Shown here piece after piece: positions 3 through 7,247 of a DNA stretch of 7,930 bases. Below the pieces are notes generated by a model, which was given only the letters and a program-made list of their open reading frames with translations, did no database searches and was not told the origin of the DNA. A program made the translations under genes and the position numbers. The DNA comes from Alphaproteobacteria bacterium (GTDB lineage: Bacteria > Pseudomonadota > Alphaproteobacteria > RS24). Each line of letters starts with the position of its first letter. Within the stretch, counting starts at the first letter, position 1. Location of the stretch: NCBI GenBank assembly GCA_028816945.1, contig JAPPQG010000195.1:1-7930 (forward strand). The letters run 5' to 3'.

Positions 3-1586
3 TTAAGCCGTGCCGCCGACAGTTAATCCGTCTAGGCGCAAACTTGGTTGGCCGACCCCGACAGGCACGCTTTGGCCTTCTTTTCCACATGTGCCTATGC
101 CTTCATCTAATTGCATATCATTGCCAATCATGGAAATGCGTTGCATGGATTCAGGCCCCGTGCCGATAAGGGTTGCCCCTTTAAGCGGTGCGCCTAATTT
201 GCCGTCTTTAATTTCATAGGCTTCGGTGCAGGAAAAGACAAATTTGCCCGATGTAATATCCACCTGCCCGCCGCCAAAAGAAGTGGCATAAATGCCATTT
301 TTGACACTTGCAATTATCTCATCTGCCTGTGTGTCCCCGCTTAACATAAATGTATTGGTCATGCGGGGCATGGGACGACAGGCAAAACTTTCCCTGCGCC
401 CATTGCCTGTGGGGGCTTGCCCCATAAGGCGCGCATTCATACGGTCTTGCATATAGGCTTTCAAAATACCGTCCTCTATCAATATAGTGCGTTCAGTCTT
501 TGTGCCTTCATCATCAATCGTCAAAGAGCCACGCCGCCCGCTTATTGTGCCATCATCAATCACTGTGACACCGGGGGAAGCGACCCTTTCGCCAATACGA
601 CCAGAAAAAGCAGAAGTCTGCTTGCGGTTGAAATCGCCTTCTAGCCCATGCCCGACAGCCTCATGGAGCAAAATCCCCGGCCACCCCGGCCCTAGCACAA
701 CATCCATTTCCCCCGCCGGCGCGGGTATGCTTTCTAAATTAACCAAAGCACAGCGCAAAGCTTCATCTACTTGTGCCTGCCAATTTTCTGCCGCTAGCCA
801 TTGGCGGTAGCCGTCGCGCCCGCCACGCCCACAATGGCCGACTTCTTGGCGTTCATCTTCGCCCGCAACAATGGAAATATCAAGCCGCACAAGCGGGCGT
901 ATATCATATAAGGGCGTCATATCGGGGCGGATAATGCCAACAACTTGCCACTCACCAGCAAGCGAGACAGAGACTTGCCGCACACGATTATCACGGGCGC
1001 GGGCATAATTATTTATGTCTTCTAACAATTTGACTTTATCGATGAAATTTTCGCCATCAAGGGGATTTTTATCCATATAAAGCTGCGCGTGTGCCGCTTG
1101 CGGGGCGTCTGCCCATTGGCCGCTATGGCCGGCTAGAATAGGGGAAAGGGCTTTTGTGGCGCGTTTGAGGGCAGTTTTGGATATATCGGTAGAATGCGCA
1201 AAGCCAATCGCTTCATCGGCAACTGCCCGCAAGCCAAAACCTTGCGATGTATCAAAACTTGCCGCTTTTAGGCGATTATCATCAAAGGCAAAATGCTCTG
1301 ATAATGTATATTCTAAAAATAATTCGCCATCATCTGCCGTCTGTAATGCGCTTTGCGTCATCTCTATGGCCGCCGCTTCATCAATCTGCCGATTGGCAAA
1401 AAGCACAGCCTGTGCGACAGGCACAGCCTGCGGTGCGACCTGTGCGGCAGGTGCGACCTGTGCGACAGGCGCGGCCTGTGCGGCCTGTGCGACAGGTGCG
1501 GCAGGATTGGGATTGCCTGCGGGGGCTTTATCGGCTAGTTTATGCATGCGTTTATCGGTTGCGTTATCGCTCATTTGCTTACTCAT
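3..1586 (-). CDS. tldD: TldD metalloprotease (PmbA/TldE partner) with a low-complexity N-terminal insert
   Basis: This is a complete 527-residue TldD, ATG at 1586 and TAA at 3-5. TldD is a cytoplasmic zinc protease that works with TldE/PmbA, known for degrading unfolded peptides and maturing small modified peptides. The zinc site is visible as HEAVGHGLEGD with H308, E309 and H313 (HExxxH). The third ligand expected from E. coli TldD is the Cys in GIGTCGKEGQSVPVG, here C500. The N-terminal domain begins near residue 62 (LFANRQIDEAAA, then QGFGLRAVADEAIGFAH at 115-131). Usual family length is about 475 residues; the excess is an Ala/Pro/Val/Gln repeat at residues 28-62. A second Met at residue 5 is an alternative start, and neither start has a convincing ribosome binding site. 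It is divergent from the oxidase genes. tldD beside this cluster is common in alphaproteobacteria, with no known functional link to oxidase assembly. Confidence 0.96.
   Translation of the reverse strand: MSKQMSDNATDKRMHKLADKAPAGNPNPAAPVAQAAQAAPVAQVAPAAQVAPQAVPVAQAVLFANRQIDEAAAIEMTQSALQTADDGELFLEYTLSEHFAFDDNRLKAASFDTSQGFGLRAVADEAIGFAHSTDISKTALKRATKALSPILAGHSGQWADAPQAAHAQLYMDKNPLDGENFIDKVKLLEDINNYARARDNRVRQVSVSLAGEWQVVGIIRPDMTPLYDIRPLVRLDISIVAGEDERQEVGHCGRGGRDGYRQWLAAENWQAQVDEALRCALVNLESIPAPAGEMDVVLGPGWPGILLHEAVGHGLEGDFNRKQTSAFSGRIGERVASPGVTVIDDGTISGRRGSLTIDDEGTKTERTILIEDGILKAYMQDRMNARLMGQAPTGNGRRESFACRPMPRMTNTFMLSGDTQADEIIASVKNGIYATSFGGGQVDITSGKFVFSCTEAYEIKDGKLGAPLKGATLIGTGPESMQRISMIGNDMQLDEGIGTCGKEGQSVPVGVGQPSLRLDGLTVGGTA
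1404..1505 (-). repeat. 9-bp-period repeat in tldD encoding (P/Q)(V/A)A units
   Basis: About eleven imperfect 9-bp units encode tripeptides such as PAA, PVA, QAA, QVA and PAA (TldD residues 28-61). The phase slips near residues 53-57. The DNA consists of GCACAGG/CCTGTGC-like blocks. Because the period is divisible by three, copy-number change keeps the frame. The segment lies before the conserved TldD domain and is probably a disordered, dispensable linker. Confidence 0.85.
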
Positions 1587-1803: not shown

Positions 1804-4438
<2,635 letters not shown>

Positions 4439-4520
4439 GTGCCAGTCCAATAGAGATAAATCGTCAAATAGATGAATAGGTAAAGCCTGCCAGATAGATG
4501 AATAGCCAAATAGGTAATAG

Positions 4521-4616
4521 ATAGATAGCCCAATAGCCAAATAGGAAACTAGATAGATAGCCCAATAGCCAAATAGGAAACTAGATAGATAGCCCAATAG
4601 ACAAATAGATAGATAG
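4521..4616. repeat. 8-bp/32-bp higher-order tandem repeat
   Basis: Twelve consecutive octamers all end in TAG. They form a 32-bp unit made of ATAGATAG, CCCAATAG, CCAAATAG and GAAACTAG. Copies 4521-4552 and 4553-4584 are identical; copy 4585-4616 matches at 27 of 32 positions. Looser relatives extend upstream to about 4466. It looks like a minisatellite grown from a TAG-ending octamer. There are no unique spacers, so it is not CRISPR. Confidence 0.92.
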
Positions 4617-4630
4617 AAAAATATACAATT

Positions 4631-4714
4631 ATGATACCGCCTTCGCAAAATCGTCCTAAAACCTATCAAACCCCGCCACAGGCGCGCACTAAATCTGCCA
4701 CAGGCGCGCACTAA
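4631..4714 (+). pseudogene. Short open frame, likely the detached former start of ctaB
   Basis: ATG 4631 opens 27 codons, beginning MIPPSQNRPK, and stops at TAA 4712-4714 inside the second copy of a 22-bp duplication. If one 22-bp copy is removed, this frame continues without a stop through 4719-4751 and into the ctaB frame at 4752, adding 40 residues that end AFQLS before VIADYF. Alphaproteobacterial CtaB proteins commonly have a variable N-terminal extension before DYFxLLKPRV, which fits. The ATG lies in an AATTATG context like coxA and coxC but lacks a clear Shine-Dalgarno site. The frame relation is read directly; that it is a broken N-terminus is inference. Confidence 0.55.
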
Positions 4715-4718
4715 ATCT
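4675..4718. repeat. Perfect 22-bp tandem duplication upstream of ctaB
   Basis: Positions 4675-4696 and 4697-4718 are identical, each starting GCCACAGGCG and ending ACTAAATCT. The length leaves a remainder of one when divided by three, so the duplication shifts the frame between ATG 4631 and ctaB. The absence of any mismatch suggests a recent event or an assembly error. Confidence 0.95.
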
Positions 4719-4751
4719 GCTTATCCGCAACGAACCGCTTTTCAATTAAGC

Positions 4752-5612
4752 GTGATAGCGGATTATTTCACCCTGTTAAAGCCGCGCGTGATGTCGCTTG
4801 TTGTCTTTACCGCTTTGATTGGCTTGGTTATTGCGCCTGTCTCTATGGACCCTGTTATGGCTTTTCTAGCTGTCTGCCTGATTGCCATTGGGGCGGGGGC
4901 ATCGGGGGCTTTGAATATGTGGTATGAGGCGGATATTGACGCTTTAATGACGCGCACAAAAACCCGCCCGATTCCCGCCGGCCGCTTGCCGCGCGCGCAT
5001 GTGCTAGTCTTCGGCCTCGTGCTTTCCTTTGCGGCCATTTTATCGCTTGGTCTATTTATAAATTGGCTCGCCGCAGGTCTTTTGGCTTTTACCATTTTCT
5101 TTTATGCCGTCGTCTATACAATATGGCTGAAACGGCTTACGCCGCAAAATATTGTTATTGGCGGCGCGGCGGGGGCTTTTCCGCCAGTTATTGGTTGGGT
5201 CGCGGCGACAGGCAGTATTGGCATTTATCCGCTCATTTTATTTGCGATTATTTTTTTCTGGACACCGCCGCATTTCTGGGCGTTAGCCCTTTTGAAACAT
5301 AAAGAATATGCGGCCGCGAATATCCCCATGCTTCCTGTTATTGCAGGTGAGCGCGCCACCCGCACGCAAATTCTTATCTATGCCCTTATTCTTGTGGGCT
5401 TTGCCTTTTTGCCATGCGCATTGGGCTATGCGGGCTTATTTTATGGGCTAGGCGCGGGGCTACTCAACATTATTTTTGTCACCCTTGCTTTATGGCTTTT
5501 TATGGCTGACCCGATAAAAGGCAAACGGGCGGCGGGCTTTTTATTCGCCTATTCCATTATCTATCTATTTTTGCTATTCGGTCTATTGCCGTTAGATAAG
5601 CTCGTAGGATGA
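4752..5612 (+). CDS. ctaB: Protoheme IX farnesyltransferase (heme O synthase)
   Basis: This integral membrane UbiA-family prenyltransferase transfers a farnesyl group to heme B to make heme O, the precursor of heme A used by CoxA. It shows about eight to nine membrane segments. The first Asp-rich motif is NMWYEADIDALMTRT (55-69) followed by RPIPAGRLP (72-80); the second conserved region spans TPPHFWALALLKHKEYAAAN (171-190) and IPMLPVIAGE. The conserved opening DYFTLLKPRVMSLVVFT begins at residue 4. The start used is GTG 4752, the only standard start codon between the in-frame stop at 4632-4634 and that motif, and it has no visible Shine-Dalgarno site. The N-terminus therefore looks truncated relative to relatives, probably through the 22-bp duplication just upstream. 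At 286 residues the catalytic core is complete. Confidence 0.96.
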   Translation: MIADYFTLLKPRVMSLVVFTALIGLVIAPVSMDPVMAFLAVCLIAIGAGASGALNMWYEADIDALMTRTKTRPIPAGRLPRAHVLVFGLVLSFAAILSLGLFINWLAAGLLAFTIFFYAVVYTIWLKRLTPQNIVIGGAAGAFPPVIGWVAATGSIGIYPLILFAIIFFWTPPHFWALALLKHKEYAAANIPMLPVIAGERATRTQILIYALILVGFAFLPCALGYAGLFYGLGAGLLNIIFVTLALWLFMADPIKGKRAAGFLFAYSIIYLFLLFGLLPLDKLVG

Positions 5613-5652
5613 TATGCTAATAAGGTGATATGCTAATAGGATGATATATTCG
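5605..5652. repeat. 16-bp tandem repeat over the ctaB stop and ctaG leader
   Basis: Three 16-bp units occur: TAGGATGATATGCTAA (5605-5620), TAAGGTGATATGCTAA (5621-5636) and a diverged TAGGATGATATATTCG-like copy (5637-5652). Units one and two differ at two positions. The first unit includes the ctaB TGA stop (5610-5612). The array fills most of the 57-bp ctaB-ctaG gap. Confidence 0.85.
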
Positions 5653-5669
5653 TAAGATATTGAGATGAC

Positions 5670-6308
5670 ATGCCAATGACACACGCAAAGACAGATATGA
5701 TGACACACGCAACAACACATACAATGAAACACGCAATGACATACAAAAGGCGCAACATATATATGACATTATCTCTATGTCTTGCTACTATTGGTTTTAT
5801 GGGTGTGCTGGTTTGGGCTGCTGTGCCGCTTTATGAAATTTTTTGCCGTGTGACAGGCTATGGTGGCACAACTAGCCGTGCTGAAACGGCTCCTAATGTC
5901 GTTGTTGAACGGGTTATAGAAATAAGGTTTGATGCAGGCCTGCACCGCTCTATGGCATGGGATTTTACAGCCCCCGCTCAGCCTATCAATTTGCGGCCGG
6001 GAGAGACGGCGCTTGCCTTTTACCGCGCCCATAATCCAACTGATGAGGTAATCATTGGCACAGCAAGTTTTAATGTGACGCCGCAAAAGGCAGGCTCTTA
6101 TTTTTCTAAAATTGATTGCTTTTGCTTTGTCGAACAGACACTTTTGCCGGGGCAAAGTGCCGATATGCCCGTGACATTTTTCATTGACCCATCTATTGCC
6201 ACTGATTCTGAAATGGATGATATAAATACCATCACCCTATCTTATACATTTTTCCGCTCTAAACAGGCGGCAAATATCAATATAGAGAACAAACAACCAA
6301 GGGGATAA
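5670..6308 (+). CDS. ctaG: Cytochrome c oxidase assembly protein CtaG/Cox11 (CuB chaperone)
   Basis: Cox11/CtaG is a membrane-anchored periplasmic copper chaperone that delivers copper to the CuB site of subunit I. It has a cytoplasmic N-terminus, one membrane helix (about 34-56) and an immunoglobulin-like domain. Copper residues are C150 and C152 in DCFCF, and the additional family cysteine is C59 in [13 protein letters not shown]. Other family marks are the YRAHNPTDE segment (118-126), [15 protein letters not shown] (134-148) and the C-terminal TLSYTFF (189-195). The first 26 residues are built from 24-bp repeats, and Mets at 3, 10, 11, 19, 23 and 32 are alternative starts with no decisive Shine-Dalgarno site. 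It is the Cox11 type, not the unrelated CtaG_Bacillus caa3 factor. It ends two bases before coxC. Confidence 0.96.
5676..5747 (+). repeat. In-frame 24-bp tandem repeat at the ctaG start
   Basis: Three 24-bp units start at 5676, 5700 and 5724, each opening ATGA(C/A)ACACGCA. They encode [16 protein letters not shown] and MKHAMTYK (residues 3-26). Every unit begins with an in-frame ATG, so the gene has several evenly spaced potential starts. The encoded segment is His/Thr/Met-rich and precedes the membrane helix on the expected cytoplasmic side. Confidence 0.88.
6299..6304 (+). promoter_or_regulatory. Ribosome binding site of coxC
   Basis: AAGGGG lies six bases before the coxC ATG at 6311 and overlaps the end of ctaG (TAA 6306-6308). 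It fixes the coxC start and suggests translational coupling with ctaG. Confidence 0.75.
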
Positions 6309-7157: not shown

Positions 7158-7247
7158 ATGCGCTACCTGCCTATGCGCCTATTTTCTATGCGTCCATTTT
7201 TCAGGCATCCATTTCCCATGCGCTCACTTTCCATGCGCCGAGCTACA
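7158..7247 (+). repeat. In-frame 15-bp tandem repeat at the SURF1 start
   Basis: Units begin at 7158, 7173, 7188, 7203, 7218 and 7233. Five of six open with ATGCG(C/T); the 7203 unit reads AGGCAT instead. The encoded pentapeptides are MRYLP, MRLFS, MRPFF, RHPFP and MRSLS, running into MRRAT. They form a basic, hydrophobic leader directly before the first membrane helix and give five in-frame ATGs at repeat starts. Confidence 0.85.

Follow-up and report, generated by a model that had tools for sequence, protein, structure and literature searches.

A frame-breaking 22-bp tandem duplication at the start of ctaB in an alphaproteobacterial genome rich in tandem repeats

Spontaneous, reversible duplications in the pneumococcal type 3 locus, in cap8E and in tts were reportedly described by Waite et al. 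in 2001 and 2003. Reversible sequence duplications within the capsule operons of several pneumococcal serotypes are likewise mentioned in the accessible part of one published account (PMC4243769). Reversibility is not to be assumed, since in the agr locus of Staphylococcus aureus a duplication-plus-inversion reverted and no revertants arose from a duplication in agrA (PMC6686034), and since in the lrp gene of Xenorhabdus nematophila, three mutations of which were tandem duplications of 26–116 bp, the available sections report no genetic reversion among those seen in the eight mutants tested, a set that does not necessarily include the duplication mutants (PMC6786866).

The ctaB locus considered here resembles the pneumococcal capsule genes in that a short duplication within coding sequence would alter expression and would be reversible in principle. 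Unlike those genes, for which phase variation has been reported, ctaB, a respiratory gene, is known here in one assembled state from a draft genome, and what is affected is its N-terminus, which is poorly conserved. The locus also recalls Xenorhabdus lrp, where tandem duplications occur as ordinary mutations in a gene, although the lrp cases were selected culture mutants, whereas the ctaB event is found in a draft genome and leaves the core enzyme encoded. A limited literature search returned no report of a tandem-duplication switch at ctaB.

The window, that is, the whole 7,930-nt stretch of DNA that was analysed, carries a cytochrome oxidase operon composed of coxB, coxA, ctaB, a gene for a CtaG-type assembly protein, a subunit III ORF and a gene for a SURF1-type protein, the subunit III and SURF1-type ORFs reaching scores short of the curated cut-offs for the models they match; tldD lies on the opposite (minus) strand. 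Haem A oxidases are supplied via heme O synthase, and ctaB is required by the neighbouring cox operon. The features that matter for the argument are given below, P0001 being the nearest protein relative of the ctaB product.

2813..4438, plus strand: coxA (cytochrome c oxidase subunit I), the upstream neighbour of ctaB (TIGR02891, 721.3 bits, cut-off 670.75)
4439..4630, plus strand: inflated coxA–ctaB spacer, 192 nt from the coxA stop to ATG 4631 (comparison with 27 family loci)
4501..4608, no strand assigned: 32-bp tandem array within the spacer, 3.4 copies, 96% matches (Tandem Repeats Finder)
4631..4714, plus strand: frame of ATG 4631, 27 codons followed by TAA 4712–4714 in copy 2; homology to the N-terminus of P0001 in its first residues (20/23, E 4e-14)
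4675..4696, plus strand: 22-bp unit, copy 1
4697..4718, plus strand: 22-bp unit, copy 2, identical to copy 1 and containing the TAA that ends the ATG 4631 frame
4698..4751, plus strand: rest of the N-terminal codons, in frame with ctaB, aligned to P0001 residues 20–37, with no ATG, GTG or TTG before 4752
4752..5612, plus strand: ctaB core ORF (heme O synthase) from GTG 4752, 286 aa (TIGR01473, 305.7 bits)

By curated equivalog models, whose cut-offs are exceeded over the whole core, the predicted product of ctaB is a heme O synthase (CtaB/CyoE). The alignment to TIGR01473 (cut-off 210.3) covers profile positions 2–280 of 281, position 2 falling at residue 4 of the GTG-started protein, and NF003349 scores 307.5 bits (cut-off 246) over positions 25–312 of 318; NF003348, a model that remains below its own cut-off, has its position 2 at residue 1. 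Judged from these profiles, the protein predicted to start at GTG 4752 is a complete core without an extension, and the stretch detached from it lies outside the conserved part of the enzyme. This is the only ctaB match in the 69%-complete genome, and a comparison of the core with solved structures returned no match.

The first-pass annotation, made from the letters alone, had pointed to two identical 22-bp units at 4675–4696 and 4697–4718, and to a frame that runs from ATG 4631 to TAA 4712–4714 out of phase with ctaB; the sequence bears out both statements. The period-22 match extends over 4675–4720, the unit being bounded by a 2-bp GC repeat. As 22 is not a multiple of 3 and the stop sits within copy 2, a change in copy number shifts the frame, and a third copy could not restore it because that stop would remain, as had also been claimed. 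The same annotation held that 40 residues are cut off from ctaB: the separation itself stands, and the figure has to be corrected to 33 codons, since the 121 nt from ATG 4631 to the core is the two-copy length, from which one 22-bp unit must be subtracted to give 99 nt. The ctaB frame is open from 4635, with GTG 4752 as its sole ATG, GTG or TTG up to the core.

A 19-base piece of the unit occurs at only two sites in the window when up to 3 mismatches are allowed, and at none in 200 shuffles. A chance origin of the duplication was considered and is ruled out by these shuffles (0/200) and by the Markov-1 resample described below (0 vs. 47). By eye, the CAC TAA stop shows no slippery sequence at which ribosomes could shift by +1 out of the ATG frame and into that of ctaB. 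Over 4600–4800 the predicted RNA structure is no more stable than in shuffled sequence (z -0.12), the 4300–4900 interval holds 2 promoter-like sites (shuffle mean 1.4) and 0 terminator-like sites, and Rfam yields 0 matches at gathering thresholds.

The comparison with relatives indicates which copy state is older. In a search with the ctaB ORF, the nearest relative among the best 120 of 8000 matches is P0001 (326 aa, 93% identical; a single cluster of 15 members of JGI source, compared as protein), the next match among them being 73% identical. P0001 carries the same N-terminus unbroken, which the window matches in two pieces lying in different frames: the ATG 4631 frame aligns without gaps to P0001 residues 5–27 (20/23 identical, E 4e-14), and the ctaB frame aligns from copy 2 onward with P0001 from residue 20; upstream of copy 2 (4635–4697), that frame shows no match to P0001. 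The unit-encoded motif PQARTKS is present in both window pieces, and the stretch to which it belongs is in single copy in P0001. Moreover, in all 27 other family genomes searched, an in-frame ATG lies 22–40 codons before the L[LM]KPRV motif, when only 7 codons separate GTG 4752 from that motif in the window, which thus departs from the start architecture of the family: the 27 family CtaB proteins have an N-terminal extension whose ATG is in frame, and in the window it is out of frame. On the strength of the unbroken P0001 N-terminus and of these 27 upstream ATGs, two copies are very likely the derived state, and the simplest history would be one unit first, followed by a duplication in the lineage of the window. 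The earlier proposal that the duplication severs a real-looking N-terminus from ctaB is thus upheld by P0001 and by the family, and no relative with an equally short CtaB and no extension was found among the 27 family genomes.

The 22-bp repeat itself is, by eye, in none of the 27 family spacers. In one family genome (G005), an exact 12-bp in-frame tandem duplication affects the same N-terminal part of ctaB (locus L083, 1466–1493), which suggests that duplications also strike this stretch elsewhere and are tolerated there. DNA of relatives with the same N-terminus was found in none of 80 genome_contigs loci, drawn from at least 591 that encode a relative, in a set that may omit records very near the window; the best identity was 64%. 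A search of viral_contigs gave one distant 35-residue match, and among protein fragments an 80-residue N-terminal query gave 45 matches, none covering more than 76% of it, with no alignable N-terminus besides that of P0001. The N-terminus is identical between a family sequence and a record labelled as PS1 clade (L006; L089), for which the limited literature search returned no report of tandem repeats, and another related protein, P0004, is labelled Parvibaculales. The host is accordingly most likely an alphaproteobacterium close to the PS1 clade. Outside the family, three proteins (P0086, P0111 and P0112, 281 aa) are annotated as starting from MKPRV, although this is annotation only and these proteins are more distant, and in one genome_contigs locus (L031) only 13 codons separate the ATG from the motif that follows it.

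The duplication is not the only change at this junction. The window has 313 nt between the coxA stop and the aligned ctaB core, against 58–122 nt in 27/27 family loci; in these 27 spacers, by eye, the ctaB ATG follows the coxA stop by about 4–25 nt, when ATG 4631 stands 192 nt away. The 22-bp duplication is therefore a second layer on a junction already swollen by repeats.

The start sites themselves were compared by a simple anti-Shine-Dalgarno energy, with 252 first-ATG starts of long ORFs from the sampled contigs, as well as random sites, serving as the reference. That GTG 4752 lacks a Shine-Dalgarno-like sequence, as previously noted, holds true, and ATG 4631 lacks one too. The energy at GTG 4752 is 2.0 kcal/mol, with 96% of the 252 starts and 92% of random sites at least as strong; that at ATG 4631 is 0.2 kcal/mol, with 76% and 53% at least as strong, respectively. 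On the same scale the coxA start reaches -6.6 and the subunit III gene start -6.2 kcal/mol. A low score is not fatal, however, since ATG 7158, taken as the start of the SURF1-type gene, also scores 2.0, equal to GTG 4752. The annotated start of P0001 is an ATG four codons further upstream than ATG 4631, and this ATG is missing from the window; together with the want of a Shine-Dalgarno-like sequence, this suggests that ATG 4631 was perhaps never a strong start. As P0001 has a Met aligned to GTG 4752, an internal start is conceivable in both the window and P0001.

We then considered how common such duplications are in this genome, using stretches from 100 of its 238 contigs (L112–L131, L133–L172 and L190–L229; 442,647 non-N bases, about a third of it) and samples of 63–100 kb from each of four relatives (G026, G010, G005 and G003; 323,085 bases in total). 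Exact tandem duplications of at least 12 bp number 66 in the own-genome sample, or 14.9 per 100 kb, and one Markov-1 resample of 60 contigs gave 0 where 47 were observed. Two family members come near this density, G026 with 12.7 and G005 with 11.2, the values for G010 and G003 being 0 and 1.2. Exact duplications of at least 20 bp number 6 in the own genome, against 0 in the 323,085 bases of the four relatives. When imperfect repeats are included, tandem-repeat regions reach 48.1 per 100 kb (3.08% of bases) in the own-genome sample, versus 11.1, 2.0, 17.5 and 2.5 in G026, G010, G005 and G003, that is, about 3 to 24 times the density in the four sampled family members. An earlier control, the surroundings of relatives' ctaB loci (1.0 and 0.9 duplications per 100 kb), is biased, these loci being gene-dense, and was replaced by the whole-contig samples.

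The lengths and positions of these duplications bear on their origin. Period lengths among the 66 vary, with no peak at 22 (2/66). Although ORFs of at least 100 aa cover 90% of the sampled bases, 32 duplications lie wholly outside ORFs, 7 at ORF edges and 27 inside, the last being slightly nearer ORF ends than expected (15/27 vs. 10.8). Since the duplications are enriched outside ORFs and their lengths are spread, they look as though a genuine process of duplication, with selection acting as a filter, had produced them, and not a habit of the assembler; assembly errors are a less likely source in that random errors would not avoid genes. Within ORFs, 22 of 27 have a length that is a multiple of 3, an excess that we do not take as proof, because it is partly forced by the definition of an ORF and because G026 shows the opposite (1/5 a multiple of 3, 4/5 not). 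Inspected by eye, the 7 edge cases and the 5 frame-changing in-ORF cases look like spacer or spurious-ORF cases, with the exception of ctaB. This genome-wide pattern favours a real mutation at ctaB over an assembly error and raises its chance, without being proof.

The explanation that we prefer, and hold to be reasonably probable, is that a recent, frame-breaking 22-bp duplication is predicted to weaken, rather than abolish, the translation of heme O synthase; an ordinary recent mutation is favoured because only one assembled state is known and because the repeat is absent from P0001. The duplication would have arisen by strand slippage or a similar event, as one of many in the genome; it puts ATG 4631 out of frame with ctaB. 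Ribosomes would then start poorly at GTG 4752, possibly aided by re-initiation after the 27-codon frame, and the predicted product would be the core enzyme minus 33 poorly conserved residues. Because the conserved core does not include the detached stretch, an effect, if any, is expected on initiation, and its size is uncertain because ATG 4631 has no Shine-Dalgarno-like sequence either. The two-copy state thus probably lowers ctaB translation, and the one-copy state was perhaps not strong either. The reverse event, which would remove one copy, may be expected at some low rate, so that the two-copy state should be revertible in principle, without thereby being an evolved switch.

Of the other explanations, an unlikely one that nevertheless deserves serious attention is that copy 2 stems from misassembly, or from a minority allele chosen by the assembler, most cells having one unit and an intact ctaB. 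In its favour, the draft assembly is broken into 238 contigs and 69% complete, the contig concerned contains runs of N, and the duplication disturbs a gene that the cox operon needs; yet duplication lengths vary without a peak at 22, 32 of the 66 fall outside long ORFs, the abundance of tandem-repeat regions once imperfect ones are included (48.1 per 100 kb) points to a biological process, and the nearest downstream run of N starts at contig position 7931, 3.2 kb off. We regard it as improbable that translation of ctaB in this genus genuinely begins at the Met/Val codon 4752, the stretch upstream being a leader that is either untranslated or translated separately, in which case the duplication would change little. 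This would accord with the Met of P0001 aligned there, the core profile beginning there, the poor ribosome site of ATG 4631, the expanded coxA–ctaB spacer and the three more distant proteins annotated from MKPRV, but it sits badly with the in-frame ATG 22–40 codons before the motif in 27/27 family genomes, with a leader whose translation agrees with P0001 at 20/23 residues in an ungapped alignment, and with the very poor start that GTG 4752 makes at 2.0 kcal/mol.

It had also been suggested that a reversible change between one and two copies could lower heme O synthesis, and a phase-variable switch kept by selection, in which both forms alternate in the population and tune that synthesis, seems to us very improbable. 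A 22-bp exact direct repeat can collapse, and the oxidases that depend on haem A are fed by heme O synthase, which would accord with a switch, as would the reversible duplications in pneumococcal capsule operons seen in the accessible part of their source (PMC4243769). Against it stand the varied repeat lengths genome-wide, which suggest ordinary mutation, the failure of the 22-bp repeat to be kept at the locus in P0001 or in the 27 family spacers, and the excerpted reports of an agrA duplication without revertants (PMC6686034) and of no genetic reversion among eight lrp mutants (PMC6786866). The suggestion thus went unsupported, the ctaB case being 1 of 66 exact duplications in the sampled third of the genome. 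Hardly credible at present is the broader idea that a free-living bacterium would toggle heme O synthesis and its aa3 oxidase by gaining and losing a 22-bp copy at the start of ctaB, with tandem duplication steadily rebuilding gene starts across the genome.

Taken by itself, the ctaB case is one frame-breaking short duplication, a common type of mutation. It also marks a genome with an unusually high frequency of tandem duplications, many of them in spacers or frame-keeping, so that the supply of mutations and selection can be observed together. Were both copy-number forms to occur in the wild, they would represent an unexpected means of varying respiration, and a true switch would constitute a respiratory contingency locus outside host-associated pathogens, the usual setting of such loci.

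Tandem repeats are also seen in several other spacers and gene starts of the operon (1704–1750, 4501–4608, 5608–5647, 5674–5741 and 7171–7239). Those at 5674–5741 in the ctaG-type ORF and 7171–7239 in the SURF1-type ORF are N-terminal and frame-keeping, with units of 12/24 and 15 bp that encode MTHA- and MR-like repeats, respectively; in the ctaG-type ORF (5670–5760), the repeat itself creates several in-frame ATG codons, which leaves the true start uncertain. In-frame repeats of 9/18/27 bp likewise occur in the N-terminus of tldD (1432–1505, minus strand), and in-frame 27-bp repeats in the C-terminus of coxB (2717–2797).
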